The translations under genes were made by a program, and so were the position numbers. Under the pieces are notes generated by a model. It was not told where the DNA came from and ran no database searches. It saw only the letters and a program-made list of their open reading frames with translations. From Tannerella forsythia (GTDB lineage Bacteria; Bacteroidota; Bacteroidia; Bacteroidales; Tannerellaceae), in assembly GCF_003860135.1 (NCBI RefSeq), contig NZ_RQYN01000005.1, positions 62,001 to 126,000 on the forward strand: 64,000 nt of DNA, given 5' to 3'. Positions 9,835-29,232 of the stretch are shown piece by piece. The first letter of the stretch is position 1, and every line of letters starts with the position of its first letter.

Positions 9835-10446
9835 ACATAAAAGATATGATTATGCTAAGACTTACTCAAACGGAAGACTTCAAGACGATGAATTCGTCTT
9901 GCTCTACAAAAGAACAGATACAAAAGGTGTCAGACAACTTTATATTGAAGGTTGTTGCTCTATGTGATACAGAAGAAGATACTGTCTCGTTGTTTCGTAT
10001 TCTCCGCTATACTCGTTTTCGTTTACAAACCTTGCAAGAGAAGTACTTGATGGACGGAGAGGGGAAAAAATGTATTGGAGCTACTCTTTGTCATTGACAC
10101 GGAGCTGGAATTGCTGAAGATGCGAATACAGGGGCTTCTTCCTGCTTTGCCCGTCAAATCAGCCAAGAAACTCCGCTGGACAGGCAAGGCAACAGACTTG
10201 GTGGAACTGCTCTATGCCCTTGACACCTGCAATTGTATCAATAATGGAGAGATTGGCGTAGAGGAACTGGCAGACGCTCTTTCTGAAATCTTCGGTGTGG
10301 AAATCAAGAACTGTTACAACGTATATATGAATATGAAACGTCGCAAAGATGACAGTCGCACCTATTTCCTTGACGAACTTCAAGAGAAACTTAACAGACG
10401 TATGGTGGAAAGCGACTTGAAAGGCGGCAAGTTCAAGAAACAGTAA
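9828..10446 (+). pseudogene. RteC-like regulator with a frameshift
   Basis: The frame from ATG 9828 (overlapping the MATE stop by 7 bp) runs to about 10067. The +1 frame then carries the C-terminal RteC-like domain: TELELLKMRIQGLLP, LRWTGKATDLVELLYALDTCNCINNGEIGVEELADALSEIFGVE. The LRWTG-x-K-x-x-LVEL-x-YAL and IN-NG segments are typical of RteC, which controls excision of CTnDOT-type elements. The frames meet in an A6 run at 10065-10070, and removal of one A gives one protein of about 206 residues. Without the shift only a short C-terminal piece could be made from the TTG at 10075. The family assignment rests on the C-terminal half. Confidence 0.7.
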
Positions 10447-10536: not shown

Positions 10537-10953
10537 CTATTGCCGATGTTGCCATTTCTCTTGAAACTCACGGGTGAGTTGCACGATTTCACCCCCGATT
10601 ATTGCCAATTCAAGCGTCAGTTTCTCCAACTTGGCGAGCATCGCAAAGGCTTTTTTCTCGGTAAAGTTGCTCTTCAAAGCGACAACAGTTTGGTTATAAT
10701 TCACTCCCACACTGCGGAATTGCCCGTACAAAGTCGCCAGTTTCTGGTAATAATCAAGCAGGGAACGATCCACTTTTATCACCCGAAAGGTCTCATTAAA
10801 GACTCTTGCCTTGATGAATAGTGACAGACTTGGTACACCACTTTCCTCTTTCATCGTGAGGAAATGGGCGTATTCTGTCGGCGTGAAATTGACCGAAACA
10901 CGCTTTTCTGTCTTCTCTTTGGAGCGTGCGCTCCGAATGTTCTTCATTTTCAT
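10537..10953 (-). CDS. MobA-like mobilization accessory protein (orphan)
   Basis: A 138-residue protein related to the small Bacteroides mobilization proteins (MobA/BmgB-type relaxosome accessory factors). The N-terminal half (KTEKRVSVNFTPTEYAHFLTMKEESGVPSLSLFIKARVFN) is a ribbon-helix-helix-like DNA-binding segment. The C-terminal half (YYQKLATLYGQFRSVGVNYNQTVVALKSNF) has the conserved G-V-N-YNQ motif of the MobC/MobA family. It would bind oriT and help a relaxase. In complete systems the relaxase gene follows immediately; here the strand ends at the terminator and no relaxase is present, so this is a mobilization remnant. Confidence 0.82.
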   Translation of the reverse strand: MKMKNIRSARSKEKTEKRVSVNFTPTEYAHFLTMKEESGVPSLSLFIKARVFNETFRVIKVDRSLLDYYQKLATLYGQFRSVGVNYNQTVVALKSNFTEKKAFAMLAKLEKLTLELAIIGGEIVQLTREFQEKWQHRQ

Positions 10954-11833: not shown

Positions 11834-12628
11834 TTACTGAGTAGTAAACTTGCATCGAGGATAATTGGAACAACCGTAGAAACTTCCGTATTTCCCATTT
11901 CGCCGTACAAGCGTACCTCCACACTGTGGGCATATACCCGATGAAATTTTTGAATCTGTTCTGTACTTTGCTTCTTTTACGTTGCGAACATGGGTCTTGT
12001 TATCAACTACCTCACGTATGTTCTTTGAAGAAAGACGTTCCACAACTACTTTTATGTCAGTATCGGTAATGTACGATGTTTGATATGCTTGAATTGTGGA
12101 AAGAAGAGCAGTGTCATAAATAACATGGCCTGCAGACGAAACTCTACTAATATCGGCATTCCCAGTGAAAACGACAATGGGGATAACTTTTAGGTAAGGC
12201 CATTCTTTCAGATTCTCCTTAATCCTATACATGTGTCCTACTACCTGTTTTACTGGATTATAGAACTGGTTCTTGGTAACGTAGGTGTATGTCTTCCAAG
12301 GTTTCTTGGGGTAAGTTACTTTAGTCACGATTATCTGTTTCCACTCCTGGATATTATCATTGCCATATATCTCACCTCGATAGTTCTTTGTCTCTATGGC
12401 AAAGACTCCATATTTAGACACTACAATGTGGTCTATTTGTGTCGTGCCATTCGTTGTCTTTAGCATGACATCATCCATCACATGGTATTCGTCTGGTAGT
12501 TGCATGAGAATATCATGAATTCTCATTTCACCTCGCTTTCCCTTTTGTCGAGGGGAGTTATACCACCAACCGAATATGGTTATGGCGATGATAGCGACAA
12601 TGAAAAGTATGGATAGAATTAACTCCAT
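11834..12628 (-). CDS. Membrane-anchored NERD-domain protein with C-terminal zinc ribbon
   Basis: A 264-residue protein, last gene of the defence operon. A transmembrane helix lies at residues 3-22 (LILSILFIVAIIAITIFGWW). A NERD (nuclease-related) domain follows at about 30-150, with GKRGEMRIHDIL, VDHI-like TQIDHIVVSKYGVFAIETKNYRGEIYG (D...E-x-K, the PD-(D/E)xK-like core). A topoisomerase-type zinc ribbon closes it (GICPQCGGTLVRRNGKYGSFYGCSNYPRCKFTTQ: four Cys). The combination implies a nuclease tethered to the inner membrane with a nucleic-acid-binding finger. It starts 3 bp after the preceding 85-residue gene. A role in defence is inferred from the operon. Confidence 0.88.
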   Translation of the reverse strand: MELILSILFIVAIIAITIFGWWYNSPRQKGKRGEMRIHDILMQLPDEYHVMDDVMLKTTNGTTQIDHIVVSKYGVFAIETKNYRGEIYGNDNIQEWKQIIVTKVTYPKKPWKTYTYVTKNQFYNPVKQVVGHMYRIKENLKEWPYLKVIPIVVFTGNADISRVSSAGHVIYDTALLSTIQAYQTSYITDTDIKVVVERLSSKNIREVVDNKTHVRNVKEAKYRTDSKISSGICPQCGGTLVRRNGKYGSFYGCSNYPRCKFTTQ

Positions 12629-12631
12629 GAA

Positions 12632-12889
12632 TCATACAATATAAACGCCCAGAAACTCACACCTCCCAATGTGTTTAGGATCTTCTGTGTATTTCCAATT
12701 GACAGGATTATAGACTTCTTCCACAATACCATTAACGATAGCAAGAACGTGAGTAGCCTTTCGCGCTCGGTTTATATCAACCTTCCAATACTTACGGGTC
12801 ATCTCATAAAGATTCTCCCTTTTTACTTTCCCTACTTTTACACACATGATGCAGTCTTCGGGACTTGGTATAAGTGCTTTCTGATTCAT
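12632..12889 (-). CDS. Small protein with a PUA/ASCH-like look, function unknown
   Basis: An 85-residue protein. ATG 12889 is chosen because it follows the AbiH stop by a single base (TAA-T-ATG); a longer frame would overlap AbiH. The central part (LYEMTRKYWKVDINRARKATHVLAIVNGIVEEVYNPVNW) has the Y-x-x-TR-x-x-WK...A-x-x-VNG-V-x-x-VY pattern that I have seen as a small domain in restriction- and RNA-related proteins. It may be a nucleic-acid or modified-base reader, but this is a guess. Tight packing between AbiH and NERD suggests co-function. Confidence 0.6.
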   Translation of the reverse strand: MNQKALIPSPEDCIMCVKVGKVKRENLYEMTRKYWKVDINRARKATHVLAIVNGIVEEVYNPVNWKYTEDPKHIGRCEFLGVYIV

Positions 12890-12890
12890 A

Positions 12891-13655
12891 TTATTCCCTG
12901 TCATAATGGTTTTCGATATAGTTTTCATTCTTACCGATAGCCAGGAGGATGATGATCATCAGTAGAGGTGTGGCCAATAGGCTCAGGAGCATGACTCGTC
13001 CGGGAAATAGTTTGTTTCTTTCCTCATGATTATATCGCAACTCTGCAATACTCTTTATGTCAAGCCCTATGTCCTCCAATGCTTTCTTTCTCCCTTCCGT
13101 TGAGAAATCCTCTGGGTTGAGGGGGGCTATCATGGCCTTCTGCAACTCTTCTTTGGGCTGGGGCGTACCAATGCTACGAAGATATTCAATGAGTTTATCC
13201 TGTAGGAAAGCTAACTGCTCATTAAGTTCCTTGACTGTATAGCCGTAGTCGGCATTCTCTGTACATCTCTTCAACAATTGATAATAGTTGTTCTCAATGT
13301 CAACCCAGCCTTTGGTTTCAATTGATTGGAGGATTGTTCCAAAGAACGGAGTACTATCAATAGAGAAAGTGTCAGGATGGTTTTGTAGCTCCGTTATCAA
13401 TTCATAGCCAGAACAAGTCTTGTTGCCTCGAATATCTTTGAAATATGAGTTCTGGAAAGCGAACACATTCCAGCAACTTATATGAGTGTCATCTTTGATG
13501 GTCAGTTTGCAAAGACAATCATCGGACACTTTTGAGGTGTTGCCGGCAAAAGCATCAATACGGCTTTCCCAATACCAGTTTATAAAGTCTTTATAACTGG
13601 TTTTGAGGCCATGAGCCATGTCAAAGCCGTTTCCTATGATGACAAGTCTGTTCAT
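12891..13655 (-). CDS. Short AbiH-family protein with C-terminal membrane helix
   Basis: A 254-residue protein whose first ~220 residues match the N-terminal half of AbiH abortive-infection proteins: NRLVIIGNGFDMAHGLKTSYKDFINWYW at the start and TKGWVDIENNYYQLL in the middle. AbiH proteins are usually near 350-400 residues and continue through an FNYT and an HIHG motif. Here both are absent, and after FPGRVMLLS the chain enters a hydrophobic helix (LLATPLLMIIILLAIG) and ends. It is therefore either a truncated AbiH or a membrane-anchored short form. It is 15 bp downstream of the membrane protein gene at 13671-14141 and 1 bp upstream of the 85-residue gene. Confidence 0.8.
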   Translation of the reverse strand: MNRLVIIGNGFDMAHGLKTSYKDFINWYWESRIDAFAGNTSKVSDDCLCKLTIKDDTHISCWNVFAFQNSYFKDIRGNKTCSGYELITELQNHPDTFSIDSTPFFGTILQSIETKGWVDIENNYYQLLKRCTENADYGYTVKELNEQLAFLQDKLIEYLRSIGTPQPKEELQKAMIAPLNPEDFSTEGRKKALEDIGLDIKSIAELRYNHEERNKLFPGRVMLLSLLATPLLMIIILLAIGKNENYIENHYDRE

Positions 13656-13670
13656 TCTTCATTATCGCAA

Positions 13671-14141
13671 TTAAGATAATTGGACATTGAGAATTGTTTC
13701 TCGATTTTTACTGAAGTCATCATTCCATACAATTTTCAACTTGATAAATTCATCATGCCCTTCACACAAAGCAATCCTTTCCTCAACACTGTTTGCTGCA
13801 TTGATTAAATCATATGGTCCCCATTTCTCATGAAAGAATATTAGCCCTTCCAACTTGTCTTGGTCGAGTATTTCAACTCTTACATTCGATGCGTCAGCAG
13901 GGCCTGCATTCACAATCTTAACGATTGAATTTGACTTGCTTCTATAAGCGTTACACTTGATATCTGCCTGAAGTTCTTTCGCCTCAGCTTTCTGCAACTG
14001 GCGAATTTGAAGATCGTTCAAGCGTTTCTCTTGTAACTTCAACTTGCGGTCATGTCGCAAGTATGCAAAAACACCACCAGTTATTCCTAAAGCAGAAAGA
14101 ATCAGTCCGCCCCAATCTTTTACAAATTCAATCCAATCCAT
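13671..14141 (-). CDS. Membrane-anchored protein with coiled coil and beta-rich tail, unknown
   Basis: A 156-residue protein. A single hydrophobic helix lies at residues 10-27 (GGLILSALGITGGVFAYL). A basic coiled coil follows (RHDRKLKLQEKRLNDLQIRQLQKAEAKELQADI), then a beta-sandwich-like C-terminal domain (SIVKIVNAGPADASNVRVEIL ... FIKLKIVWNDD). The N-G-x-A-x-A-x-NV-x-V pattern resembles Ig-like domains found behind single membrane helices in small uncharacterised bacterial proteins. It sits between the zinc ribbon gene (2-bp gap) and AbiH (15-bp gap) in the defence operon. No catalytic motif was seen. Confidence 0.7.
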   Translation of the reverse strand: MDWIEFVKDWGGLILSALGITGGVFAYLRHDRKLKLQEKRLNDLQIRQLQKAEAKELQADIKCNAYRSKSNSIVKIVNAGPADASNVRVEILDQDKLEGLIFFHEKWGPYDLINAANSVEERIALCEGHDEFIKLKIVWNDDFSKNRETILNVQLS

Positions 14142-14143
14142 AT

Positions 14144-14416
14144 TTACTTTATTTTGATATGTTTGTTACCTTTGAAAGCCTTCTTAAGCTGGTCTTTGAT
14201 GTAAGATGCAGCATCTTTCTGCATTTCTTCCTTGACCTCATCAAAGGCTTCTTGGTTGAGTTCTTTCAATTCCTCAATACCACCAAAGTATTCTCTATTA
14301 CAGAATGTACATTTGATATATGATTTGTCATCATTGAACTCAAATTGATCTTCATAGCCACATGTGGCGCAGCGAAGACGTATCTCATAACTATCTTTAA
14401 GTTTATTATTAGTCAT
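14144..14416 (-). CDS. Small zinc-ribbon protein, unknown
   Basis: A 90-residue protein with two CxxC pairs (RCATCGYEDQFEFNDDKSYIKCTFCNREYFGG), typical of a zinc ribbon, followed by a long charged amphipathic helix (EELKELNQEAFDEVKEEMQKDAASYIKDQLKKAFKGNKHIKIK). The start overlaps the HsdS stop by 8 bp, so translation is coupled. It may be an adaptor binding nucleic acid or another operon protein; no family name can be given. Confidence 0.7.
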   Translation of the reverse strand: MTNNKLKDSYEIRLRCATCGYEDQFEFNDDKSYIKCTFCNREYFGGIEELKELNQEAFDEVKEEMQKDAASYIKDQLKKAFKGNKHIKIK

Positions 14417-16262
14417 TTATAACATCAGGTGCAAAACCGTTCTCGCGCATCCATTGGATAGCGTTTAACCAACGTTCTTTTGATATTCGCTTCTTCGATT
14501 CATGCCAGTTGTTCAGCACCTCATTCACGATATCGGCATCTGTGAAAGTCTTGTTGCTGTTTAGAAAATCCTCCCATGCACTATAGAGCGTGGCAACGAT
14601 TTCACACCGCTCTGTGTTTTGCGTCTTGAACGTATCAATGATTTTTTCGAATGTGGGCAAAACTGCAGAAAAGTATTTATCAAAATACGTTTTATGCTTG
14701 CCACGGTTTTGCATTGGCACATATCTGTTCCCTTTCTCTGTCCGTCTCACCTCAAACCATTTCTGCTTTTTCAACTGGCTGTCAATAGAGCGTAATGCTC
14801 TGTTGTCATACGGACCAGCTGCATCTCGATGATAGTGAGAGCCTATGTCTATACGGCAAAGACGTTCTGTGAGGAACAGCATTTTCTCCATCTTCACATG
14901 TCCAAATGTCGGTTCTTCACATAGCCTATCTGCAATCTCTGCCGCCAAAACGCTTCTTCGGAAATGTACATTTGCCGTTGTGGTATTCGTTCTGGCTACT
15001 GTGTTTACCAGCCTTATCTTACCAGTAAGCAACTGCTGCATCATGCCTTGCTTAATGGCGGTGTATTTGTCTCGCTTGGCTTCGAGAGCAGAGATTTCGT
15101 TGTCCATTGAAGAAAGGACTAAAGCGATGGCGGATTGCTCTTGTAATGAAGTTGGTGCATATAGCAATACGTTGGCAACTTTTTCTTTATTAAGGTTCTG
15201 TACGCTGCTACCAGCCGCCATTGATACATATTGGTTCATAACGGCATCCGAACAAAGGATATAATACAAGAACTGCATATCGTAAGCCTCTTGATAGTCT
15301 TGTATAACAAGCCATCCGTCATGAATACAACCATCTATATCCAATATATAAGGTCTTCCAAAGCTCATAGAGTTAGAGAGAATAAAGTCACCCTTCTTCA
15401 CTTGACGAGTTTTAGATAAACCCTCTTTTTTGATTTTCTCAGCAGCTTTACGGAGGTACTTATCTTCGGGCTTCACATCACCGATTTTTATCCAATTTAA
15501 CCCATCTTGACTGTCAGTAATATAGTCCTCAATAGGACGTGGTGATCCTCCACGAAGAATTGTAGCATCTTCACCAAGTTTTTTCTCCTCCCACGGCACA
15601 GTGAATCCTTTGAGGCGTTTCTTGCCTGTAAGGAGTTGCTGCATGGCACCTTGCTTGATGGCTCGCTTCTTCTCAATCAGCTTACCCAATTCTGCTATTA
15701 AGGCATCAACATTTGAAAGTGCAGTTGCTATACGAGTTTGCTCAGATTTATCCTTTGGATAGATCAATTGGAATTTCACAAAATCCTTTTGATACAAATG
15801 ATTTATTGTAGAACCTGCAGTAAGCTGGTCAATAAATGATTTGAACCATATTGACTTAAATATCCATGACAAATAGGCTTGATTAACTGCATTTTCTTGT
15901 TTCGATCTAACTACGAAAACACCGCTATTGAGCGTTCCAGGTCCAGGAATACTATTAAGGAAGGCTACTTTTCCTATTGTTCCATCTTTAGAAATAAGGA
16001 CATCACCTTCTTTAATTTGGATATTTGTATCTTGGTCATATCTCCATTTGCTTACATAGCAACAATTTTTCCAATCGATATATCCATCTTTGAAATCCGT
16101 TCCAGTAATCAGAATATAGTCGCCCTGTGGCAAATATTCACCTGTGGTTAATCCTTGCCATCCAATTCTTGCTTTAAGGGTACACAATTTATCTATGTTG
16201 GTTGCCTCCCAATCCACAGGAATCCTTCCTACCTCTGTATCTTTGAATCTTGTTTCAATCAT
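14409..16262 (-). CDS. hsdS: Type I restriction-modification specificity subunit with extra C-terminal domain
   Basis: A 617-residue HsdS. The start MIETRFKDTEVGRIPVDW is chosen because ATG 16262 overlaps the DUF1016 stop by 4 bp and begins the classical HsdS entry. Two target-recognition domains (about 1-180 and 220-380) are each followed by a conserved helix ending in IKQGAMQQLLTGKKRL and IKQGMMQQLLTGKIRL. They set the two halves of the DNA recognition site. Ordinary HsdS proteins end near residue 420; this one has about 200 more residues (HFRRSVLAAEIADRLCE, FGHVKMEKMLFLTERLCRI, HRDAAGPYDNRALRSIDSQL), resembling a Panacea-type helical domain. Confidence 0.93.
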   Translation of the reverse strand: MIETRFKDTEVGRIPVDWEATNIDKLCTLKARIGWQGLTTGEYLPQGDYILITGTDFKDGYIDWKNCCYVSKWRYDQDTNIQIKEGDVLISKDGTIGKVAFLNSIPGPGTLNSGVFVVRSKQENAVNQAYLSWIFKSIWFKSFIDQLTAGSTINHLYQKDFVKFQLIYPKDKSEQTRIATALSNVDALIAELGKLIEKKRAIKQGAMQQLLTGKKRLKGFTVPWEEKKLGEDATILRGGSPRPIEDYITDSQDGLNWIKIGDVKPEDKYLRKAAEKIKKEGLSKTRQVKKGDFILSNSMSFGRPYILDIDGCIHDGWLVIQDYQEAYDMQFLYYILCSDAVMNQYVSMAAGSSVQNLNKEKVANVLLYAPTSLQEQSAIALVLSSMDNEISALEAKRDKYTAIKQGMMQQLLTGKIRLVNTVARTNTTTANVHFRRSVLAAEIADRLCEEPTFGHVKMEKMLFLTERLCRIDIGSHYHRDAAGPYDNRALRSIDSQLKKQKWFEVRRTEKGNRYVPMQNRGKHKTYFDKYFSAVLPTFEKIIDTFKTQNTERCEIVATLYSAWEDFLNSNKTFTDADIVNEVLNNWHESKKRISKERWLNAIQWMRENGFAPDVIND

Positions 16263-17392
16263 TTGCTTATCTCCTTTAACAGAAAGTCTTGTAGTGTTTT
16301 CTTGTCTGGTAGCGAAAGCATGTAAGTGGACACAAACAGGTTGTTGTCCAAACCAGCCAGAGCGTACTCCACCATCTTGTCGCCTTTGCGAGTGCAAAGC
16401 AGAATACCCACAGGAGGATTGTCCCCTGGATTCATCTCGTTCTCCCTGAAATATGAGACGTAGGCATTAAGCTGACTGAGGTCGGCATGGCGGAACTCGT
16501 CGTCTTTCAGTTCGATGATGACATTGCAGTGTAAGATACGATTGTAGAACACCAAGTCGGCAAAGTAGTATTCATCGTCGATAATCATCCTCTTCTGCCG
16601 CGCCTCAAAGCAAAATCCCTTGCCCATTTCGAGCAAGAACTCTTGCAGATGCCCTATCAAGGCATTCTCCAAATCGCTTTCTGTAAACGCTTCGGGGCGC
16701 AAGCCAAGAAACTCAAACGAGAATGGATCTCTGATGGTAAGAACTGGCGATGTGTTAACTTCTGTCCTTTCCAACAAGAGTTCAGGCTTTTCACTCACTC
16801 CTGCACGGAAGTAGAGGTTTGTCGAGATTTGTCTGCGTAGCTCTTTTACACTCCAACAGCAACGGACACACTCTGTTTCGTAGAAAAAACGTGCTAAAGA
16901 ATCATCAACTGTCAACAGTTCAACGATATGGGAAAAGGATAGATTAGACATCAACTTTTCTGCCGGTGTAGTGAATTTATCCGACGCCGTCGGACTTTTC
17001 TCCACAGATTTCTCCGATGCTGTCGGAGAAATGGCAGTCAAGTAGTTTTTTATTTGAGGATAAGTCAAATAGAACTTACGACCATTTGTGAGCAATGTTT
17101 CATTGATTCCCCTTTTGTTCACACGCTCAGCCAAACGCTTTAGCAGACGGTCGCCATACTTAGCGCGGTCATTGCCATGCTGCTCATACTCCACAATATA
17201 GAATCCAATGACATAGTTTCTTATCGTAGCAAAACGGTTTATCGCTTTAACGGTTGCCGAATAGGCGGAATCGTGCAACTGCAACACCAGTTCAGACAGA
17301 TGCTCGAATGAAAACGCCGTCTCATCTGCCCAATTTTCTGGCAAGTTATATAGAACAGTTATTTCTGTATGTTTTGTTTTTTTCTTGTCCAT
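16259..17392 (-). CDS. DUF1016/YhcG-family PD-(D/E)xK nuclease
   Basis: A 377-residue protein of the YhcG family often found inside type I restriction operons. The N-terminal DUF1016 domain (about 30-130) has YSATVKAINRFATIRNYVIGFYIVEYEQHG and RAKYGDRLLKRLAE. A linker carries two SPTAS-x-K repeats. The C-terminal half holds the nuclease core: FADLVFYN...CNVIIELKDDEFRHADLSQLNAYVSYF (D...E-x-K...Q). It probably works in DNA or RNA processing; its exact role in type I systems is not settled. It lies 13 bp after hsdM and overlaps hsdS by 4 bp. Confidence 0.93.
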   Translation of the reverse strand: MDKKKTKHTEITVLYNLPENWADETAFSFEHLSELVLQLHDSAYSATVKAINRFATIRNYVIGFYIVEYEQHGNDRAKYGDRLLKRLAERVNKRGINETLLTNGRKFYLTYPQIKNYLTAISPTASEKSVEKSPTASDKFTTPAEKLMSNLSFSHIVELLTVDDSLARFFYETECVRCCWSVKELRRQISTNLYFRAGVSEKPELLLERTEVNTSPVLTIRDPFSFEFLGLRPEAFTESDLENALIGHLQEFLLEMGKGFCFEARQKRMIIDDEYYFADLVFYNRILHCNVIIELKDDEFRHADLSQLNAYVSYFRENEMNPGDNPPVGILLCTRKGDKMVEYALAGLDNNLFVSTYMLSLPDKKTLQDFLLKEISK

Positions 17393-17405
17393 ATAAAAAT
17401 ATGAT

Positions 17406-19835
17406 TTACAAGATGAATCCCATCTCTTTGAGTGAACGAAGGACCTCCTGTTCCAAATCGTTCACTTTGCCCTCGGTTGCGCCTAGTGTCACCTCATAAC
17501 GCTCGGCAAGGGAGGTTACGTCGCTTGTTATCTGGTGTGTGACGTTTTGCATCAAGGCTTCGCAACCACCTACAACACTTGCAAGCCACTTACGTTCAAC
17601 CACAAGCGTCTTGATTTCATCCTCTTTCATGGCGGCATACTTCGCTACAACTGACTCCGTAAGTTCGGTGCGCTTCTGCTTCCATTGGGAAACATAACCC
17701 TCCTTCTTTGTATAAGTAGATTCCCAAAGCTTCAGGATTTCCAAGTCCTCCTTGGTCGTACCATCCGTCTTTGCATTCTTGACTGCTTTCTTTACATCAG
17801 CAATCTTCACATTGGCAGGCTTGTCTTCTTCGTCATCATCGTTGAAACGGAATACATCGGTATTCGACTCCACAAGGTCGGACAATTCCTGTTGTAGGCT
17901 CTCTATAGAAGACGACAATTCAGCAATCTCTTTGGTCTCGGCTGTGAAGTATTCAGCAAGCACGATGCTGACAGGCACGAGGTCGCAAACTATCTCGTCG
18001 TACATGATAGCCTTCTTCTTGTCGCCTTTGCCCGACTTTGTAGCTCGCACTTCCGGAAATGTCCACCCATCGTTAGCAATCATGTAGCTGTCATCCTGCA
18101 TCACGTCTGCCCAGTAGTTGAGCAATACATCATAGACTTCGTAGGCATCCACCAGGCCGCTGTGGTCTTTTGCCTTGTCAAGTAACGACTCTGACCATTT
18201 GGCAATCAGCTCCATGGGGCGTGCGCCCTGACCGACGGCTTTCATCTGTGGCATAATCTCTGCTTTCCATTCATTCAGAAGTGCAGAGAACCGACCATTC
18301 TGCGAGACGTAAGAAGGATCTTTCTCTATTGTTTGAGCTATGTCTGCCTTTACGGGCTTCAGGCTATAGTAACCATTTGCCGTACAGTTGAAAAGGCTGA
18401 CCTTCAATGAAGGACAGGCATTCCAGTACGTTTTCATCCCGTCCACATCGTGGGCAGGAAGTCCTCCATGCAAATGAGCCTCGATGTCATGCTGAATCTC
18501 AGTGTCCTTTGGCTGTATGTATCGGGGAATGTTCAGATTGTAGTCATTACGCTCTATCTCATCCCATTCTACAAGACGGCAATAGTGGTCAATGGCCTCT
18601 TGTGCATCCCAAGCATCCACGATGCGCTTGATGTCTTGCTCGCGCAGACGGTTCTTTGCTCCGTCCTTCTTGAAGCCATCTTTTGCATCTATGAAGAAGA
18701 TACCCTTGCGACTATCCTTATTTTTCTTGTCGATGATAATAATGGAAGCAGGAATGCCTGTACCAAAGAAAATGTTTGGCGGCAATCCAATAATTCCCTT
18801 GATATAGTGCTGTTTGACAATATGTTTGCGGATATCGTATTCTGCGTTGCCACGGAAAAGAACACCATGAGGCAGGATGCAAGCGCCACGTCCTTCATCA
18901 GTCTTCATGGAGGCAATGAGGTGAAGCAAGAAAGCGTAGTCGCCACACTTGGCAGGTGGTAACAAGTTAGCGGTCCAGCGGTTATACAGGTCATTCTCCA
19001 TGCCCGATGCCAGCCAGTTCTTCATAGAGAAAGGAGGGTTGGCTACGCACACATCAAAAGTGCTGACCATACCATACTGCTTGAACTGTGGGTCGGCTAA
19101 CGTGTCGCCCACCTTGATATCGGCACTGCTGATACCGTGAAGCAACATGTTCAGCTTAGCCAATGCCGCCGTACTGCTGTCTTTCTCCTGTCCGAAGATA
19201 GACACACGGGGATTGCTGGCTTCAGCCAAGGCACGAAGCAACAAAGAACCAGAGCCACAAGTAGGGTCATAGATGGTATGCTCGGCACGGTCGAGTTCAT
19301 CGATGCGAAGGAGCTTTGCCATCACACGACTTACCTCGGCAGGTGTATAGAACTGTCCCTTACTCTTACCGCTCTCGGCAGCAAAGTTCTTCATCAGATA
19401 TTCATATGCATCACCCAGAAGGTCATCATCAGCAGCACGGTTATGCGAGAAGTCGAGTGCATCATTTTCAAATACGCCGATAAGCTTTGACAAGGTATCA
19501 ACCATCGTGCGTCCACTGCCCAGTTTTGTGGGGTCGTTGAAGTTAGGCAGCGCAAGGTCACCAATCTGTCGGGCATTCATTTCCTTGATGGCCTCCAGTT
19601 TGGTATTCATCTTCTCGCCAATCTTATCCTCCTGTTTCAGAGCCACGAAATCCTTGAAGCTACAACCCTCTGGTACTCTAAGACGGAAGCCTGGCTGACC
19701 AGCCTTGTCAGAGAGATACTTCACGAACAAGACTATCAGCACGTAATCCTTGTACTGACTGGCATCCATTGAGCCGCGAAGTGCATTACACGACTCCCAG
19801 AGTGCGCTGTATAACTGTGATTTCTTTATTGCCAT
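17406..19835 (-). CDS. hsdM: Type I restriction-modification DNA methyltransferase subunit
   Basis: An 809-residue N6-adenine methyltransferase that modifies host DNA as part of the HsdMS or HsdRMS complex. The N-terminal HsdM helical domain (LWESCNALRGSMDASQYKDYVLIVLFVKYLSDK) precedes the catalytic domain with SAM motif I DPTCGSGSLLLRA and motif IV NPPF (CVANPPFSMKNW). A long C-terminal part (about 600-809) is rich in charged helices (ELSSSIESLQQELSDLVESN) and makes this protein longer than the usual ~500 residues; it resembles the longer HsdM class. It starts 5 bp after the DUF262 gene. Confidence 0.96.
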   Translation of the reverse strand: MAIKKSQLYSALWESCNALRGSMDASQYKDYVLIVLFVKYLSDKAGQPGFRLRVPEGCSFKDFVALKQEDKIGEKMNTKLEAIKEMNARQIGDLALPNFNDPTKLGSGRTMVDTLSKLIGVFENDALDFSHNRAADDDLLGDAYEYLMKNFAAESGKSKGQFYTPAEVSRVMAKLLRIDELDRAEHTIYDPTCGSGSLLLRALAEASNPRVSIFGQEKDSSTAALAKLNMLLHGISSADIKVGDTLADPQFKQYGMVSTFDVCVANPPFSMKNWLASGMENDLYNRWTANLLPPAKCGDYAFLLHLIASMKTDEGRGACILPHGVLFRGNAEYDIRKHIVKQHYIKGIIGLPPNIFFGTGIPASIIIIDKKNKDSRKGIFFIDAKDGFKKDGAKNRLREQDIKRIVDAWDAQEAIDHYCRLVEWDEIERNDYNLNIPRYIQPKDTEIQHDIEAHLHGGLPAHDVDGMKTYWNACPSLKVSLFNCTANGYYSLKPVKADIAQTIEKDPSYVSQNGRFSALLNEWKAEIMPQMKAVGQGARPMELIAKWSESLLDKAKDHSGLVDAYEVYDVLLNYWADVMQDDSYMIANDGWTFPEVRATKSGKGDKKKAIMYDEIVCDLVPVSIVLAEYFTAETKEIAELSSSIESLQQELSDLVESNTDVFRFNDDDEEDKPANVKIADVKKAVKNAKTDGTTKEDLEILKLWESTYTKKEGYVSQWKQKRTELTESVVAKYAAMKEDEIKTLVVERKWLASVVGGCEALMQNVTHQITSDVTSLAERYEVTLGATEGKVNDLEQEVLRSLKEMGFIL

Positions 19836-19840
19836 ATTTA

Positions 19841-21880
19841 TTACTCACTTTCTAAGAGTGTCTTAAATTCAACGCTTATGTTTTGTTCTTCTTGTAGCGA
19901 GGCAAAGAAGCCAAAGTCTATTGCGTTCTTTGCTTGCATAACATCTGCAAATTCTTGTGTTGTTGTAGTAACTGGTATGGTTCCCGACAAGGCTTGCATC
20001 GCTGTGGGATTAGGGATGTTCCTCACTACTGTCAAGCGATAGCGAGTAATTCCATTACCAATTACTTTGTCAAGAGTGATGCTTTCCTTGCCTTTCTTGC
20101 CATAAAGCATACGTTCTTCTTGCTCAACCTCAGTTACGCTACTTACAAGGTTCTGACTGAAGAATGCCATCAGACGATTGCACACTTCATCGCGCCGATG
20201 CTCTATATCCTCTGGCAACCAATCATGCTTCAGATGATTGGTTGCCAAGTCTTGTACTTCTTTGACGTGAGAAACGATATAATATCGCTTTTTCTCGCCA
20301 AAATAGCCGTTTCCTGCACGAATGTTCGGATGCTTCTCGAAAGGTATTTTGTTGCCGATGCTCTCTAAATGTTCCTCTGCTGCTTCACGTGTCCAGCCAG
20401 CATAGTTGGCTTGCTTCCATCGTTTCGGAAGAATATGCTCAATCTCCAATTTTCCCGTAAATAATTTGCTTTCAACGTCGTAAAGATAAGCAGCAAGGAG
20501 TATAATGCTCTTAACGACTTTACTTCTTGTGCGCGATGCACGTTCTATCAGACTGTTAAAGTCTATCGGCATGATATTCTGGAATACAGTATCGCCATTG
20601 TGATAGATGTCAATGCAGAACTTATAAGTCGGTGGTTTGACAGCATTGACCTGTGGCTTGATTATAAACTGAACCAACATGTACGACAGCAAGCCACGCA
20701 TGAATTTTTCTATGCGTGTTTTGAAATTATCTTCGCCTCGATGTTTGATATAGAACACACTGACAACACAACGCCAATAGTCATTGGGGAAGTTTACCAA
20801 ACAATGAATGTACTTGATAGCTTCTAACGTGTAGTACTCGTTTCCTTCGTCAAACTCGCCTACATTGTCGTAGGTGTTCACCCAGAACCTTGCCAAGTCT
20901 TTGATGTCCTCAAAGAAATTGTCCTTATGAAGTTCGTCATATTTGTAATTGTCGCCAGCATAAAACTTGCGAAGTCCTTTCTCATTATCTGTTATATTGT
21001 CCCTGGCACGAATAACGTGCATGTAGAAACGGAACATGTCGTTTATGGTCAGACCGCTGTCCTCGACAAGTTCTTCAAGGTTTTTCCATTCATCGGTAAA
21101 GGCAGACTTCTCTTCGGGTGTCCTTAACTTCTTATACAATTCTGCTTTAAATATATCAGAATCTGACAATGGAAGACCTCGATTATTCAGTGTACTAAAA
21201 ATTGTCAGGGCTGAATTGAGGTCTTCGCATTCAATCGGAAACACGATGCAGTCGTTTAGAATGGTAAGACACAACTCTTTCCACATCATCGTGTTTTCTG
21301 CAGCAAACTTCTCACACTGGTTAAAGAAATAGGTATAATTCTTTGCGTAGGCTGATTTGCTGTCACGTTTCTCTCCTGTACAAAGGATATTCTTGAAGTC
21401 TTCATTATCCTTGTCGAGAGCTACACGACTGTCAATCTTCAGTAAGGTTCTGTCCTTTACCTTACGCGACATCTTGTCAACTTTCCAAATGCATGGTTCT
21501 ATCTGTTGCATCAGTCCTTCGATGTCTTCATCGTTCGGCCATTCTTCTTTCATTTTTTCAAGCTTCAGATAGAATGCACGTAGCAATAGCATCAATGATG
21601 TCATACGTTGTTGTCCATCTATGATATTGATTTCATTCTTATTTGCTTCGTCGGTATAGGTAACTATGGTGCCGATGAAGTACTCCTTTGGTGCATCTTC
21701 GTTTTTTCGTTTCTCATTGAAAAAGTTTTTGATGTCCGTCCAAAGAGTATCACACTCATTTTCACCCCAACGGTAAGGGCGTTGATATTCGGGTATCACA
21801 TAAAGCCTATCCTTATTCGTTGAATCGGACATACTCAGCAAAGATGCTATATTTTTTCTACTTACTTGTAATTCTGCCAT
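19841..21880 (-). CDS. DUF262/DUF1524 protein, GmrSD-like type IV restriction enzyme
   Basis: A 679-residue single-chain GmrSD-like nuclease. ATG 21880 (MAELQVSRKNIASLLS) lies 16 bp after hsdR; a longer frame would run into hsdR. The DUF262 half has EYQRPYRWGENECDTLW and the nucleotide-binding IIDGQQRMTSL motif. The C-terminal DUF1524 half has the HNH-type LEIEHILPKRW and ESIGN segments. GmrSD enzymes use NTP to cut DNA with modified bases such as glucosylated hydroxymethylcytosine. Placed between hsdR and hsdM, it could target phages whose modified DNA escapes the type I enzyme (inference). Confidence 0.92.
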   Translation of the reverse strand: MAELQVSRKNIASLLSMSDSTNKDRLYVIPEYQRPYRWGENECDTLWTDIKNFFNEKRKNEDAPKEYFIGTIVTYTDEANKNEINIIDGQQRMTSLMLLLRAFYLKLEKMKEEWPNDEDIEGLMQQIEPCIWKVDKMSRKVKDRTLLKIDSRVALDKDNEDFKNILCTGEKRDSKSAYAKNYTYFFNQCEKFAAENTMMWKELCLTILNDCIVFPIECEDLNSALTIFSTLNNRGLPLSDSDIFKAELYKKLRTPEEKSAFTDEWKNLEELVEDSGLTINDMFRFYMHVIRARDNITDNEKGLRKFYAGDNYKYDELHKDNFFEDIKDLARFWVNTYDNVGEFDEGNEYYTLEAIKYIHCLVNFPNDYWRCVVSVFYIKHRGEDNFKTRIEKFMRGLLSYMLVQFIIKPQVNAVKPPTYKFCIDIYHNGDTVFQNIMPIDFNSLIERASRTRSKVVKSIILLAAYLYDVESKLFTGKLEIEHILPKRWKQANYAGWTREAAEEHLESIGNKIPFEKHPNIRAGNGYFGEKKRYYIVSHVKEVQDLATNHLKHDWLPEDIEHRRDEVCNRLMAFFSQNLVSSVTEVEQEERMLYGKKGKESITLDKVIGNGITRYRLTVVRNIPNPTAMQALSGTIPVTTTTQEFADVMQAKNAIDFGFFASLQEEQNISVEFKTLLESE

Positions 21881-21896
21881 TTTATCTGTTATTATG

Positions 21897-24800
21897 TTAT
21901 GAGTTTTGTGAAGCGAGACGGTAAATCTCATAGATGTCCTGTTCGCAAAATGATGGGAACATAGCTTGCAGGTCGTCACGCAAGTCCCAACTGGCATTGC
22001 TGTCGGAATCTTGCCAATTAGCCCCTGCATTGCGATAGATGAAATCGTCAATCTTCTTTATGATTTCAATTACCTCGTTGTCATCCGCAGGAGCGTTCCA
22101 TGCAGTACGGTTATTCCATAAAGCCTTGCTACGCTTGTTACTAAGTCCATTTGGCGCATCACTACCATGCTTGATTGCTTTTATATGCTCAATGAGTGCC
22201 TTTATTCTCTCTTTGGCGGTAGCATTGCTTTCCCTCAGTTGGTCGAGCAATGCCTGTAACCTCTCACTGAAAGCTCGTTGCTCTTCCTCGTCACCGCTAT
22301 TCCAGTCGGTATTGACACGGCGAGCCTTACCCTCAATGACTTCGGCTGCTCCATTGGCATTGCCTCCTGCTTGACGGATGGCTTCATCAGCAGCCTTGTC
22401 GGTGTCTGTAGTATCATTGATAAGGTCGAGGAAAGAGAAGTCGGCAGATGCTTCCACCAAAGTCTCAGCATCCTCCGCACGGATATGCTGGTCAAGAAGC
22501 TGTCGCATATCGGGGTCAAGAGTGCGTGGATCGAAGTCGTCACCAGATTTCTGGCGCACCTTGCGCTGTATGGTTCCTGCCTCTCGGGAGAGTGAGGCAA
22601 AGCGTTCTATCTGCTCAGGCGTGAAATCTGTCTGGCAGAAATAGTCGGACATATTGTTATATGCTGTGACCATGCCACCTGTGATGCTGTACATGAGGTT
22701 TCGGCGGCATTGTGCAGGGTCTTCACCTTCCAGTTCGGCTACATAATACTCCGTAAGCGGTTCCAATTCTGTAAGTCCCTTACTTTCCCAGATGGCTTTC
22801 AGTCCTTCATAGGCTTCTGTTGCAGCCTTCAGTTTTTCTTTGCATTTATTGACAACACCATCGAGCAATCCTTCTACATCGACACCATCGAGACCAGAGA
22901 AGCCTTCGCCGTCGTTGAACTTGACAACGGCATCTTCAATGCTGTCGAACAGATTCTTGAAACTGATGATACGGCCAAATTCCTTGTGTGTTTTGACTAT
23001 CACGTTGCCTTCCTCGTCTTTGATGTCCTCGCCAAGTCGGTTCACACGGCATACTGCCTGGAACAAAGTATGGTCTTTAATCTCATTGTCGATATAAAGG
23101 ACGGTGGCACATGGGGCATCGAAGCCAGTGAGCAGCTTGTTTACCACAATGAGCAGCTTCATCTGTGCAGGACGCTTGATGAAGAGGTTCTTTGCCCACT
23201 TCTCATAGTCATCAGCATTATTGATACCATCACCAGCATCTTTGAACGACTGCTTTGCCCAGTCATACTTGAATTTAGCCTCCGTTTCCTTGCTCGTGTC
23301 AGCCGAATCGTTGGCAATATCACTGTCCATTGGGTCATAGCTCGTTACTACTGCAACACGCCCTCTGAGCAGAGTGTTGCTGCTGTCTTGAGTAAAGAAC
23401 TTGTAGTATCTGTAAGCCTGATAGATTGAACCAGCCACCAACATGGCATTACTCCAATCATGCTTCAACAGACCAAAACCAACATCGTCAAGGATGCTGT
23501 AGCCGATACGCTCGATACGCTCCTTTGTAGAATAAACCTTTTCCAAGGTTGCCCATCGGTCTTCTACCATTCTGCATTGCTCATCAGACAGCTCACGTCC
23601 TGCTGTCAATGCAGCCAGTTTCTGGTCAACTTTCTGTTTGTTGGCAAGCTGTTGCTCTACGTTGCGGTATTCATATTGCAGGTCGAGGATAACCCTGTCT
23701 TCCACGGCCTGTTTGTGCAAATACTTGTGGATATATGGGCCAAAGGTACGTTCAGACATGCTCTTGATGCGGTTATACATATCGCCCTTGTCTTTCTTCA
23801 GGAGAGGCGTGCCAGTGAAACCGATGAGCATAATCTCCTTACCCATGATGGCTCGCATGGCTTCGTGAAGGCGACCGCTCTGTGTGCGGTGGCATTCATC
23901 GACAAAGACAAAGATGTTGTCACCCTTCACACTGAAGTTGTCGCCATATTTCTGTGTGATAATGGCTTGCAGTTCATTAAGGTATTCATCCAGACTAACC
24001 TTTGTTCCCGATTCGTCTTTCTCGGCTTCATCCTCAGATCCGTTTGCACCGAACTTGTGGATGAGTGAGCAGATGAGCCATTCTTCACCTTTATTAAGCG
24101 TGTCGAGAAGGTCGCTGCTTGAAGTAGCCTGATGAAGCGTGTTGCCTCCTTTTATGAATGTTCCTGCCAACTGCAGGTCAAGTTCTTTGCGATCAGTAAT
24201 GACCACGACACGAGGATTCTTATAATTACGACGTATATAGGATGCCAAAGCAACCATCGTAAGACTCTTGCCAGAACCTTGCGAATGCCAGATAACACCG
24301 CTTTCCTTCTTTGGCATACGTGCCACCGCTGCTTTGATAGCATATATCTGATGTGGGCGTAACACTTTCTTGATGCCGCCATCATTCAGTACACCATAGC
24401 GGAAGAAGAACATAAAGTTCTCTTTGTTGAAGAACATCATGTATGACTCTTGCTCTGTCAACACATCACCCAGTTTGTTGGTGTCGCGCTTCCATTTACA
24501 CCAGAACTTTAACGGAGTTCCGACAGTACCATAGCGGAACTCCACGCCATCGTTGGAAGCTATGGTAAATTGTGTTGTGGTAAAGAAGGATGGTATGAAA
24601 TCTCTTTCGTTTGATAAGTGCTGCTTGATACCTTCTTCATAATTGACAAGACTGCGCTTCAGTTCAATGACCGCCAAGGCTATGCCGTTCACATAGACAA
24701 CGATGTCTGGACGCTTGTTCTTTCCCAACAAGGGGTCAATGTAACTGACCTCTTCGGCTATGGCAAAGTTATTGTTGGCAAAGTCCTTGAAGTCAAACAG

Positions 24801-25178
24801 CATCACGTCCTCGTGGTTTGACTCTGGGTCTGGTTGTGACTTGATGCCCATCATCAAGGTGTCATACAGGTCTGTATTGCACTGCATCAGACCGCTCATC
24901 TTGGCATTTCCAAGTCTGGCTTTGCTTTTTAGCTGAAATAGGACATCTTCTATCTGCCGTTCCGTGTATTTCGGCGTTTTGTCCTTTTTCTTCTGGGCTT
25001 TCAGGAACTTGCGCACCTCATCATCAAGGATGGGCGAGTTTTGCTTACCCAAACTGTTGACTATCTCGCCTTTGGCATATTGCCAGTTGCCGAGATACTT
25101 GTAACCAAGTTCGTCTTGAAACCTCCTAACGAGCTTGTTCTGATATTCTCTTTCCCTTTGTTCTTGATAAGTTGCCAT
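21897..25178 (-). CDS. hsdR: Type I restriction endonuclease subunit (translocating helicase/nuclease)
   Basis: A 1093-residue motor and nuclease subunit. The N-terminal PD-(D/E)xK nuclease has RPDIVVYVNGIALAVIELK. The SF2 helicase motor follows with Walker A HSQGSGKSLTMVAL, motif II VDECHRTQ, motif III IGFTGTPL and C-terminal helicase motifs (LLIVVNKLLTGFDAP, QAVCRVNRLG). The C-terminal coupling helices end the protein. It cuts unmodified DNA after translocation with HsdM and HsdS. It starts 4 bp after the metallopeptidase gene and precedes the DUF262 gene by 16 bp. Confidence 0.96.
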   Translation of the reverse strand: MATYQEQREREYQNKLVRRFQDELGYKYLGNWQYAKGEIVNSLGKQNSPILDDEVRKFLKAQKKKDKTPKYTERQIEDVLFQLKSKARLGNAKMSGLMQCNTDLYDTLMMGIKSQPDPESNHEDVMLFDFKDFANNNFAIAEEVSYIDPLLGKNKRPDIVVYVNGIALAVIELKRSLVNYEEGIKQHLSNERDFIPSFFTTTQFTIASNDGVEFRYGTVGTPLKFWCKWKRDTNKLGDVLTEQESYMMFFNKENFMFFFRYGVLNDGGIKKVLRPHQIYAIKAAVARMPKKESGVIWHSQGSGKSLTMVALASYIRRNYKNPRVVVITDRKELDLQLAGTFIKGGNTLHQATSSSDLLDTLNKGEEWLICSLIHKFGANGSEDEAEKDESGTKVSLDEYLNELQAIITQKYGDNFSVKGDNIFVFVDECHRTQSGRLHEAMRAIMGKEIMLIGFTGTPLLKKDKGDMYNRIKSMSERTFGPYIHKYLHKQAVEDRVILDLQYEYRNVEQQLANKQKVDQKLAALTAGRELSDEQCRMVEDRWATLEKVYSTKERIERIGYSILDDVGFGLLKHDWSNAMLVAGSIYQAYRYYKFFTQDSSNTLLRGRVAVVTSYDPMDSDIANDSADTSKETEAKFKYDWAKQSFKDAGDGINNADDYEKWAKNLFIKRPAQMKLLIVVNKLLTGFDAPCATVLYIDNEIKDHTLFQAVCRVNRLGEDIKDEEGNVIVKTHKEFGRIISFKNLFDSIEDAVVKFNDGEGFSGLDGVDVEGLLDGVVNKCKEKLKAATEAYEGLKAIWESKGLTELEPLTEYYVAELEGEDPAQCRRNLMYSITGGMVTAYNNMSDYFCQTDFTPEQIERFASLSREAGTIQRKVRQKSGDDFDPRTLDPDMRQLLDQHIRAEDAETLVEASADFSFLDLINDTTDTDKAADEAIRQAGGNANGAAEVIEGKARRVNTDWNSGDEEEQRAFSERLQALLDQLRESNATAKERIKALIEHIKAIKHGSDAPNGLSNKRSKALWNNRTAWNAPADDNEVIEIIKKIDDFIYRNAGANWQDSDSNASWDLRDDLQAMFPSFCEQDIYEIYRLASQNS

Positions 25179-25182
25179 AGTC

Positions 25183-25869
25183 CTATAGTGGGAATTCGTT
25201 TAATTGTTCTTTTATCTTTTGCCATCCAGGAAGATAAGTTCCAAGGATATGCTTGAATTTGTTTGTATGATTCTGCTCTATGAGGTGAGTAAGTTCATGG
25301 GCTACCACATATTCTATGCAGTTCAATGGTTTCTTAGCCAACTGTAGATTGAACATTATCTTTCCAGTATCTTTGTGGCACTTGCCCCAACTTGAAGTCA
25401 TCTGCTGAATAGTCCATTCTGCGACCTTAACATCAAGTATTTTCTCCCATTTAGTCACATACAATTCGAAGGTTGGAGTAATTTGTTCCTTATACCAGTT
25501 CCAAAGTACATTTGCAATGCTTTCCTTTGTGGTACGTTCATAGACATATACATTGATATAGTCGCCCAGAATATCGACATGGAAGGTACAGGTGTTGTCC
25601 CTGATAACCTTCAGACGATAAAGTTCACCTTTGTAGTAATGGGCTTCACCAGACACATATTCGCGCTTATCTTGAAATGTGTAGGATGTAGTCTCTTTGC
25701 GCTTCTGTACGAGCCATACCCATTTCTTTAGGACAAAGAGCTTAATCTGCTCATCAGTGTATGACTGTGGAGCAGACACATGAACCCTTCCATCGGGTGG
25801 ATAGACCGCCAAATGGAGGTTCTTAATGGGCTTACGCTCAACTTCTATATCAACACCATTTACTACCAT
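25183..25869 (-). CDS. YgjP-like (DUF45) zinc metallopeptidase
   Basis: A 228-residue protein of the YgjP/SprT-like family that commonly accompanies hsdR. The zinc site is visible as VVAHELTHLIEQNHTNKF (HExxH plus a downstream His), preceded by WGKCHKDTGKIMFNLQLAKKPLNCIEY. The N-terminal half is beta-rich (KNLHLAVYPPDGRVHVSAP). Its substrate in restriction systems is not known; proteolytic control of HsdR is a speculation that fits the tight linkage (4-bp gap to hsdR, 3-bp gap from the regulator). Confidence 0.92.
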   Translation of the reverse strand: MVVNGVDIEVERKPIKNLHLAVYPPDGRVHVSAPQSYTDEQIKLFVLKKWVWLVQKRKETTSYTFQDKREYVSGEAHYYKGELYRLKVIRDNTCTFHVDILGDYINVYVYERTTKESIANVLWNWYKEQITPTFELYVTKWEKILDVKVAEWTIQQMTSSWGKCHKDTGKIMFNLQLAKKPLNCIEYVVAHELTHLIEQNHTNKFKHILGTYLPGWQKIKEQLNEFPL

Positions 25870-25872
25870 GTC

Positions 25873-26103
25873 TCACTTTGATTTTTGCGACAACAAATAT
25901 GATTTGTACTCGCGCACAATCAATTCCTTAATGTCAACTTCAAGCAAGTCGGCAATCTTCAAAAGGCTTGGAAGGTCAGGCTGAGAAGAATTGGTACACC
26001 ATTTTGAAACGGTGGATGGTGTTACCCCCATCTGCTCAGATAGCCATTTGTTGGTTCGCTTCTTTTCAACCAATACCAACTTGATACGATTTACATCTTC
26101 CAT
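25873..26103 (-). CDS. Xre-type helix-turn-helix regulator of the defence operon
   Basis: A 76-residue Cro/C1-type DNA-binding protein, first gene of the operon. The helix-turn-helix is NKWLSEQMGVTPSTVSKWCTNSSQPDLPSLLKIADLLEVDIKELI (about 18-62). It resembles control (C) proteins of restriction systems in size and position. The palindrome at 26130-26146 lies directly beside the promoter -7 element and is the likely operator, suggesting autorepression and delayed expression of the restriction genes. Confidence 0.92.
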   Translation of the reverse strand: MEDVNRIKLVLVEKKRTNKWLSEQMGVTPSTVSKWCTNSSQPDLPSLLKIADLLEVDIKELIVREYKSYLLSQKSK

Positions 26104-26122: not shown

Positions 26123-26146
26123 CAAAGTTAGTGAAATTATTTCACT
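26123..26146 (-). promoter_or_regulatory. Promoter -7 element and palindromic operator of the defence operon
   Basis: TAACTTTG on the minus strand (26130-26123) matches TAnnTTTG. Immediately upstream is a 17-bp palindrome AGTGAAATTATTTCACT (26130-26146, odd centre at 26138). A bound regulator would cover the space between -7 and -33. No convincing -33 TTTG was found 19-21 bp upstream. Confidence 0.7.
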
Positions 26147-26193: not shown

Positions 26194-26932
26194 GATATTG
26201 TTAAATTGCTATAGTTTTTGTAACTTTGCAATAAAAAACTATGGATTGTCCAAGATGCGGAAGTTTAAACCATCGCAAAGATGGCGTTGTCGGTGGTCGT
26301 CAGCGACATTATTGTAAAGATTGCCAATATCGTTACACAGTAGAAAAGAAATCGGATGTTAAGTCCTCACAAATTCGCCGTATGGCTTTGGAGATGTATT
26401 TGGAGGGTTTGGGGTTTAGGGCTATTGGTCGCATATTAAAAATAAGTCATGTCACGGTTTATTATTGGGTAAAGGAATGGGGTGAAAACGTGTCGCTTCC
26501 TCAAAAAGAAAAATGTGTCGATATTGTGGAATTAGATGAAATGCATACTTACGTGGGTTCAAAAAAAAACTACCGTTTGATATGGATTGCTGTTGATAGA
26601 CTTGGAAAAAGGTTTATCTCTTTTGTCTGTGGGGACAGAAGCACAAAGACAGGCTTAAAACTATGGAAACGGGTGCAGGAAATTTCTGTTTGTTTTTATT
26701 GCTCTGATTGTTGGAAAAGTTATGCGGAAATTATCCCTCCAAAAAAAACATATTCAAACAAAAGCAGAAACTTACACCGTAGAGAGTTACAATAGCAGAG
26801 TCAGGCATTATTTGGCAAGATTTAAGCGAAAAACAAAATGTTACACCAAAACTGAACATATGATAGAAAAATCTCTAAAGTTACTCTTTTTGAAACTTAA
26901 TAATGAATTAACTATATTAGTTTAACAATCCC
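26194..26932 (+). mobile_element. IS1-family insertion sequence with 8-bp target duplication
   Basis: A 739-bp element. Ends are imperfect inverted repeats: GATATTGTTAAATTGCTATAG on the left (split here as GATATTGTTAAA + TTGCTATAG) and GGGATTGTTAAA + CTAATATAG as the reverse complement on the right. It is flanked by AATTTTAT at 26186-26193 and 26933-26940, a perfect 8-bp direct duplication, as expected for IS1-type insertion. It contains one transposase gene and lies about 50 bp upstream of the defence operon promoter. Confidence 0.88.
26241..26925 (+). pseudogene. IS1-family transposase split by a +1 frame change in an A8 run
   Basis: The N-terminal part has the InsA-like zinc finger (MDCPRCGSLNHRKDG...RHYCKDCQYRY) and helix-turn-helix (FRAIGRILKISHVTVYYWVKEWG). 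The InsB-like DDE part follows (VDIVELDEMHTYVGSKKNYRLIWIAVDR, DRSTKTGLKLW, YCSDCWKSYAEIIPPKK). The frame then ends in a nonsense tail, while the +1 frame continues correctly (HIQTKAETYTVESYNSRVRHYLARFKRKTKCYTK). The junction is an A8 run at 26741-26748; seven A would give one intact protein of about 228 residues. Transcriptional slippage on A8 could restore it, or the copy is dead, or the base is a sequencing error. Confidence 0.85.
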
Positions 26933-29196: not shown

Positions 29197-29232
29197 GTCT
29201 TGCTTTTGACCTTTTTTGTCTTAGTCTTCCGG

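Follow-up and report, generated by a model that had tools for sequence, protein, structure and literature searches.

GmrSD- and McrBC-type enzymes are both established as attacking modified DNA (e.g. PMC12707154), and GmrSD enzymes embedded in type I restriction-modification (RM) operons have already been published (Machnicka 2015, PMC4619093; TgvAB, PMC11411939). In Vibrio cholerae, TgvAB is embedded in the type I RM operon of VPI-2 (PMC11411939). Another GmrSD-family gene inside a type I operon, RloF of Campylobacter jejuni, is cited in PMC11411939 and PMC4619093. The RRDM island of enteropathogenic E. coli has the gene order RptR-HsdM-HsdS-DarTG-HsdR-M48 (PMC12255303). CMoRE (PD-T4-3) is a GIY-YIG nuclease specific for 5-hydroxymethylcytosine (5hmC) and its glucosylated form (5ghmC); its C-terminal domain, for which no homologues were reported, senses the modification (PMC12923530). 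Here, we analysed a run of twelve genes in a 64,000-nucleotide stretch of Tannerella forsythia DNA (contig NZ_RQYN01000005.1, positions 62,001 to 126,000), hereafter called the window. Based on gene content, presence or absence of a GmrSD-like cassette, truncation of genes and recurrence of cargo slots in related operons, all of which were directly observed, we conclude with considerable confidence that this locus is a type I RM operon carrying stacked extra defence cargo, and not one fixed system. Stacking of defence genes in type I operons is already known. What is new here is the movement of a cassette between type I and type III loci, a tally of cargo slots, and a family of stand-alone candidate modification readers.

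The type I core and its GmrSD-like cassette

The run is on the minus strand and spans 11834-26103. All twelve co-directional open reading frames (ORFs) of the initial annotation were found, with spacings between -8 and +16 bp (+3, +4, +16, +5, +13, -4, -8, +2, +15, +1 and +3 bp, in order). As the ORFs are packed so tightly on the same strand, their arrangement is not due to chance. The family names given in that annotation were also backed by Pfam, which recognized HTH_3, YgjP, HsdR, GmrSD_N and GmrSD_C (the DUF262/DUF1524 protein), HsdM, DUF1016 with the YhcG nuclease, HsdS, and NERD with a topoisomerase-type zinc ribbon; NCBIfam backed the named families as well.

The core is a complete type I RM system. 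HsdR (21897-25178, 1093 aa; HSDR_N, SWI2_SNF2 and T1R_D3, with TIGR00348 above cut-off) combines a nuclease with a superfamily 2 (SF2) motor, and its motifs PD..ELK and GSGKS are intact. HsdM (17406-19835, 809 aa; PF02384, E=1e-103; TIGR00497 above cut-off) is an N6-methyltransferase with an intact NPPF motif. HsdS (14409-16262, 617 aa, starting at ATG 16262; Methylase_S, E=1e-27) is also intact and consists of two target-recognition domains (TRDs) followed by a C-terminal extension of about 200 aa. Judging by their families, these three proteins would methylate host DNA and cleave unmethylated DNA. The HsdS extension (residues ~420-617; window 14409-15005) was recognized by PADLOC as the C-terminal part of an HsdM model; it recurs in the sister operon described below (L055) and, as it seems, in L056 and L058, while other relatives are without it. 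The core is accompanied by a YgjP-like metallopeptidase (25183-25869, 228 aa; PF01863, E=6e-57), in which the catalytic motif HELTH is intact, and by a DUF1016/YhcG PD-(D/E)XK nuclease with an intact D..ELK motif (16259-17392, 377 aa; Pfam; PADLOC candidate PDC-S02), which is located in the slot between hsdM and hsdS. A literature search found no paper on the combination of DUF1016 with hsdR.

The first gene, reg (25873-26103), encodes a 76-aa XRE-family helix-turn-helix regulator (HTH_3, E=4e-10; PDB 3bs3, E=1.2e-20) that is 97% identical in the sister operon. In the window and in the sister operon alike, a perfect 17-bp palindrome, AGTGAAATAATTTCACT (26130-26146 in the window), begins 43 nt upstream of reg and abuts a -7 box of the TAnnTTTG type. 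This box reads TAACTTTG in the window and TACCTTTG in the sister operon, with differences at free positions only. The palindrome is the probable operator of reg, an XRE-type repressor that would bind there and control the whole run. Inside the run, the Bacteroides-type promoter pattern is matched only once, within hsdR. From these features we infer a single promoter with autorepression by reg, from which the run would be co-transcribed. The initial annotation had described one regulated system; what is borne out is that the type I and GmrSD-like genes share one gene run and probably one promoter (palindrome, -7 box), while the inclusion of the tail in one system is not supported. An identification of reg as RptR was rejected: the regulator matches the XRE-type structures 3bs3 and 3omt, and RptR (9R2Z) was not among the matches. 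The promoter region of the window operon has no TAGCTA repeats.

Between hsdR and hsdM lies the cassette (19841-21880), which encodes a 679-aa GmrSD-like protein composed of DUF262 and DUF1524 (PF03235, E=3e-39; PF07510, E=1e-11; best PADLOC match HEC-06) and starts at ATG 21880, which is not the start of the longest ORF. The DUF262 domain has the QR, DGQQR and FxxxN motifs of the GmrSD family (QRPYRW, DGQQR and FSTLN) and the DUF1524 domain has EHxxP (EHILP), all intact. In the sister operon, the stop codon of hsdR and the start codon of hsdM are separated by an empty interval of about 20 bp; the GmrSD-like ORF of the window sits at exactly that junction. In Xylanibacter brevis (L002), a gene run that also encodes type III-like methyltransferases and a Res-type helicase-endonuclease includes a protein with 90% identity across 679 residues. 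Proteins with 79-81% identity are encoded in two Prevotella-type metagenome-assembled genomes (L003 and L004), where the gene lies between hsdS and hsdR; the HsdR of this type I system shares only 24% identity with that of the window. At the DNA level, homology does not reach beyond the ORF and, at most, the 18 bp upstream of it. Because such close proteins are found in unrelated operons, and because the DNA homology hardly exceeds the ORF, the comparison indicates that the gene moves as a single ORF among unrelated restriction operons. A remoter relative on an Enterococcus faecium plasmid (L088) adjoins type I genes, and another on a Lactiplantibacillus plasmid (L087) is without flanking restriction genes. 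By its family, the cassette product would act on its own, cleaving DNA that carries modified cytosines, and it may cover phages that escape type I cutting.

Cargo slots in related operons and divergence from the sister operon

We read 16 distant relatives of the type I operon, 15 of which have a visible gap between hsdS and hsdR. YgjP is beside hsdR in all 16, with one intervening gene in L069. Within the hsdS-hsdR slot, Pfam recognized DUF262 genes in five of the 15 (L061, L062, L066, L068 and L069), and a McrB-like ATPase with McrC occupies the slot in two more (L067 and L071). For scale, the genomes of ten relatives (~28.5 Mb) contain seven GmrSD_N matches, whereas the slot gaps sum to about 32 kb. 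Since seven of the 15 slots hold modification-dependent restriction genes (GmrSD or McrBC), an enzyme of this sort is, by gene content, a recurrent cargo of such type I operons. The initial annotation had considered the embedded enzyme for modified DNA to be a non-standard part; this view is not supported, given both these operons and the published RloF and TgvAB. The two McrBC pairs (L067:6401-9725 and L071:11534-14644), whose McrC proteins are 72% identical, are in operons from different families of the class.

Further cargo comprises a deaminase/ATPase (L059), a PDC-S02 nuclease (L060) and, in L062, a PLD-like protein. The hsdM-hsdS slot contains Fic (L058), ORF6N (L069) or RhuM (L071), and the DUF1016 protein found there in the window would be a second cargo nuclease. 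The five-gene tail of the window run, Zn-mem-abiH-p85-NERD, is in none of the 15 informative relatives. We read the window locus as a Bacteroidales type I RM operon of the kind linked to a YgjP/M48 metallopeptidase, which most likely served as an assembly site for other defence genes.

The sister operon, L055, belongs to a genome of the same genus (G471) and has reg, YgjP, hsdR, hsdM, DUF1016, hsdS, Zn, mem and abiH in the order of the window, i.e. nine of the twelve genes, with 87-91% DNA identity over most of its length. A second contig of this genome, L122, has the downstream flank of the window (p85, NERD, MobC, RteC and a MATE gene). Because the order of this flank is kept, the sister operon is probably at the same chromosomal site as the window operon, the two contigs being presumably joined. 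Both end within gene X, a membrane-protein gene that in G471 seems to be interrupted by a mobile element where the contigs end (L055:1-318, L122:1-621; inverted end sequence TTAAGGAGCGACTAC).

Compared with the sister operon, the ratio of nonsynonymous to synonymous divergence (dN/dS) is 0.02-0.09 for reg, YgjP, HsdR, HsdM, DUF1016 and mem, and selection on these proteins is, by this measure, strongly purifying. Synonymous divergence is 0.87 for HsdR, 0.71 for YgjP, 0.49 for HsdM, 0.45 for the flanking MATE gene and 0.30 for DUF1016; in the tail it is 0.21 for mem, 0.14 for Zn, 0.02 for NERD and 0.00 for p85. This unevenness along the run suggests that blocks of the operon were exchanged at different times. 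The first TRD of HsdS could not be aligned between the two operons, as expected if the specificity of HsdS was swapped.

The mosaic divergence would also fit a passive defence island, in which a hot spot is shared by separately transcribed genes that do not cooperate and whose close spacing reflects compact gene packing. Mobile-element remains on both sides of the run (a truncated integrase, MobC, a truncated RteC and an IS1-like element) point the same way. However, the run contains just the one promoter match in hsdR, its genes overlap by 4 and 8 bp, and the cassette was inserted precisely between a stop and a start codon, and we therefore consider a passive island unlikely. The IS1-like element (26194-26932, plus strand) lies upstream of the operon promoter, has an 8-bp target duplication, AATTTTAT, and is absent in the sister operon. 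The other remains are a truncated tyrosine integrase beside tRNA-Ser, a truncated RteC and a MobC gene (27910-28962, 29231-29319, 10075-10446 and 10537-10953). No tRNA-Ser attachment-site repeat that could delimit an integrated element was found beyond chance within the window.

The tail and its truncated genes

The tail can be described as two parts. Zn, mem and abiH would form a downstream cargo block common to the sister species, which is followed by gene X, a putative reader and NERD. Zn (14144-14416) is a 90-aa CxxC zinc-ribbon protein with a weak ECs_2282_CxxC match below cut-off, and it is 94% identical in the sister operon. The 156-aa protein mem (13671-14141), which has one probable N-terminal membrane helix, is 95.5% identical there. 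It has no Pfam match above cut-off, and a sample of 395 genomes of the class gave its own copy and one chance-level match, with nothing convincing beyond. Searches for mem and AbiH on plasmids gave no match.

Only the 5' part of abiH is present in the window (12982-13655, residues 1-225 of a 379-aa gene), while the gene is full length in L055 and L110. The window protein aligns to Pfam AbiH over residues 4-178, which correspond to positions 1-107 of the 260-position profile, and does not contain a full-length domain. It is in register with the 379-aa sister protein up to the 10-bp segment TGCTCCTGAG (12982-12991), after which the reading frame continues into the last 29 codons of gene X (12891-12981), with the same ending as gene X in L126 and L122. 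An intact 230-aa form of gene X is found in L126 and a 160-aa C-terminal part in L122. Because each parental gene contains the identical 10 bp (L055:805-814 in abiH and L122:521-530 in gene X), a short-homology deletion is the simplest account of the in-frame AbiH(1-225)::X(29 aa) chimera. Alignment of eight AbiH sequences shows that the part lost, with the FGYGDE, GHSCGxSDRTLL and SIKPFY regions, is the best-conserved third; in genomes G433, G444 and G423, identity is 56-60% in this part versus 29-39% in the N-terminal part. As the deletion between the 10-bp repeats would have fused abiH to gene X, the abortive-infection part of the operon is probably dead, and its suicide step probably lost, in this genome. 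The initial annotation had the system finally turn on the infected cell; such a killing role for AbiH is difficult to reconcile with the loss of its most conserved third. The chimera might instead be a new, functional, membrane-anchored short AbiH; its in-frame fusion, a probable membrane helix at its end and a dN/dS of 0.20 for the retained AbiH part agree with this, but the regions lost are the best conserved of the family, and we find such a function improbable.

The next gene, p85 (12632-12889), is a 3'-truncated, stand-alone relative of the modification-sensing domain of CMoRE (PADLOC PD-T4-3, E=5e-9; PDB 9u7u, E=1.4e-5, the match being to the C-terminal domain of CMoRE). Stand-alone homologues of 109-119 aa are found in several Bacteroidales (L123:8889-9248, L139:1721-2080, L140:4513-4842, L141:1164-1502 and L143:4561-4911), and a short, unverified record that also contains mobilisation-type genes encodes one of 110 aa (L126:2337-2669). 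Other homologues are, by sequence, fused to GIY-YIG (L120, L121, L146 and L147); this nuclease is absent from p85 and its stand-alone relatives. A seven-member profile matches CMoRE at E=7e-9, in agreement with a sensing domain. The fold evidence concerns a relative and not p85 itself: the AlphaFold model of a full-length relative (alignment led by L139) has a moderate pLDDT of 72, and Foldseek placed CMoRE at ranks 1-4, followed weakly by YTH, ASCH and VcaM4I domains. The latter are other modification readers or their relatives. Searches for p85 in viral contigs gave no match.

Since p85 is without the last ~25 residues kept by its relatives, and is shortened in the sister genome too, it is probably a remnant. 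The initial annotation had listed the short AbiH and the 85-residue protein as small genes; both are truncated genes. NERD, the last gene (11834-12628), encodes a 264-aa nuclease-related protein with a C-terminal topoisomerase-type zinc ribbon (PF08378, E=1e-26; PF01396, E=9e-16) and an intact D..ETK motif. That p85 and NERD form an intact split modification-dependent enzyme here was rejected because of the missing C-terminal residues. In L143, the reader gene is located 13 bp after two genes that, judged by eye, resemble those for DUF262 proteins. A tentative and rather doubtful idea is that the stand-alone CMoRE-domain homologues of ~110 residues are undescribed small DNA-modification readers of Bacteroidales, acting in trans with a neighbouring nuclease as split modification-dependent restriction, the window copy being a truncated remnant. 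The partners would be the two DUF262-like proteins in L143, and NERD in the ancestor of the window locus.

The genes of the tail also occur independently. A 72% identical AbiH copy is in a conjugative-element setting without this operon (L110), another directly follows a different HsdR (L111), gene X and the reader are together in L126, apart from the window operon, and NERD relatives match 1600 plasmid records. The initial annotation had placed the tail in the same system and had named operons without the tail, with tail genes found independently elsewhere, as evidence to the contrary; both are what the relatives examined show. One integrated, layered system of twelve genes, in which type I restriction, GmrSD for modified DNA and then AbiH/NERD suicide are all needed together, has in its favour the tight spacing, the single orientation and the nine genes kept in order in the sister species, where the chromosomal site is probably the same, but it is very unlikely in our view, given that GmrSD is absent in the sister, that the tail is absent in 15 relatives and its genes live on their own elsewhere, that AbiH and p85 are truncated, and that the widely varying synonymous divergence, from HsdR and HsdM to NERD and p85, points to blocks with different histories. 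A type I operon with stacked cargo remains our preferred reading. Against it weigh the finding of just one close homologous operon (L055), the derivation of the GmrSD-like target from family membership, and the fact that Zn and mem could form a working system with something else.

Comparison with known systems

With the sister operon as a control, the locus shows how layered restriction loci are assembled, a modification-dependent enzyme being swapped in as a single-ORF cassette among the core genes of type I and type III systems. Close to one in two of the related type I operons that we examined has an enzyme of this sort, and the idea that phage DNA with and without modifications is covered in a complementary way thereby becomes testable. 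The window locus also calls for caution, as genes labelled 'abortive' in operons of this sort may be non-functional.

Like TgvAB and RloF, the window locus has a GmrSD-family gene in a type I operon, an arrangement interpreted as giving complementary protection against phage DNA with and without modifications. TgvAB, however, is a two-protein system located between hsdS and hsdR, whereas the window has a single DUF262 and DUF1524 protein between hsdR and hsdM. The window operon differs from both in having DUF1016 and a tail. The domains and motifs of the GmrSD-like protein are those of the type IV enzymes HEC-06, BrxU and Eco94GmrSD, but the window protein has about 100 extra C-terminal residues. 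Sequence similarity links p85, like its intact relatives, to the 5hmC-sensing C-terminal domain of CMoRE, and one relative matches this domain by predicted fold; in contrast to CMoRE, p85 stands alone without a GIY-YIG nuclease, and the window copy is truncated. The RRDM island shares with the window locus a small autoregulator as first gene, a type I core, a metallopeptidase gene and another, embedded defence system. There, regulation is by RptR and TAGCTA, whereas the window regulator is XRE-type with a 17-bp palindrome; the window cargo is GmrSD and DUF1016, and the gene order is permuted, with YgjP before hsdR. By analogy, the window locus may work like these published islands, TgvAB, RloF and RRDM.

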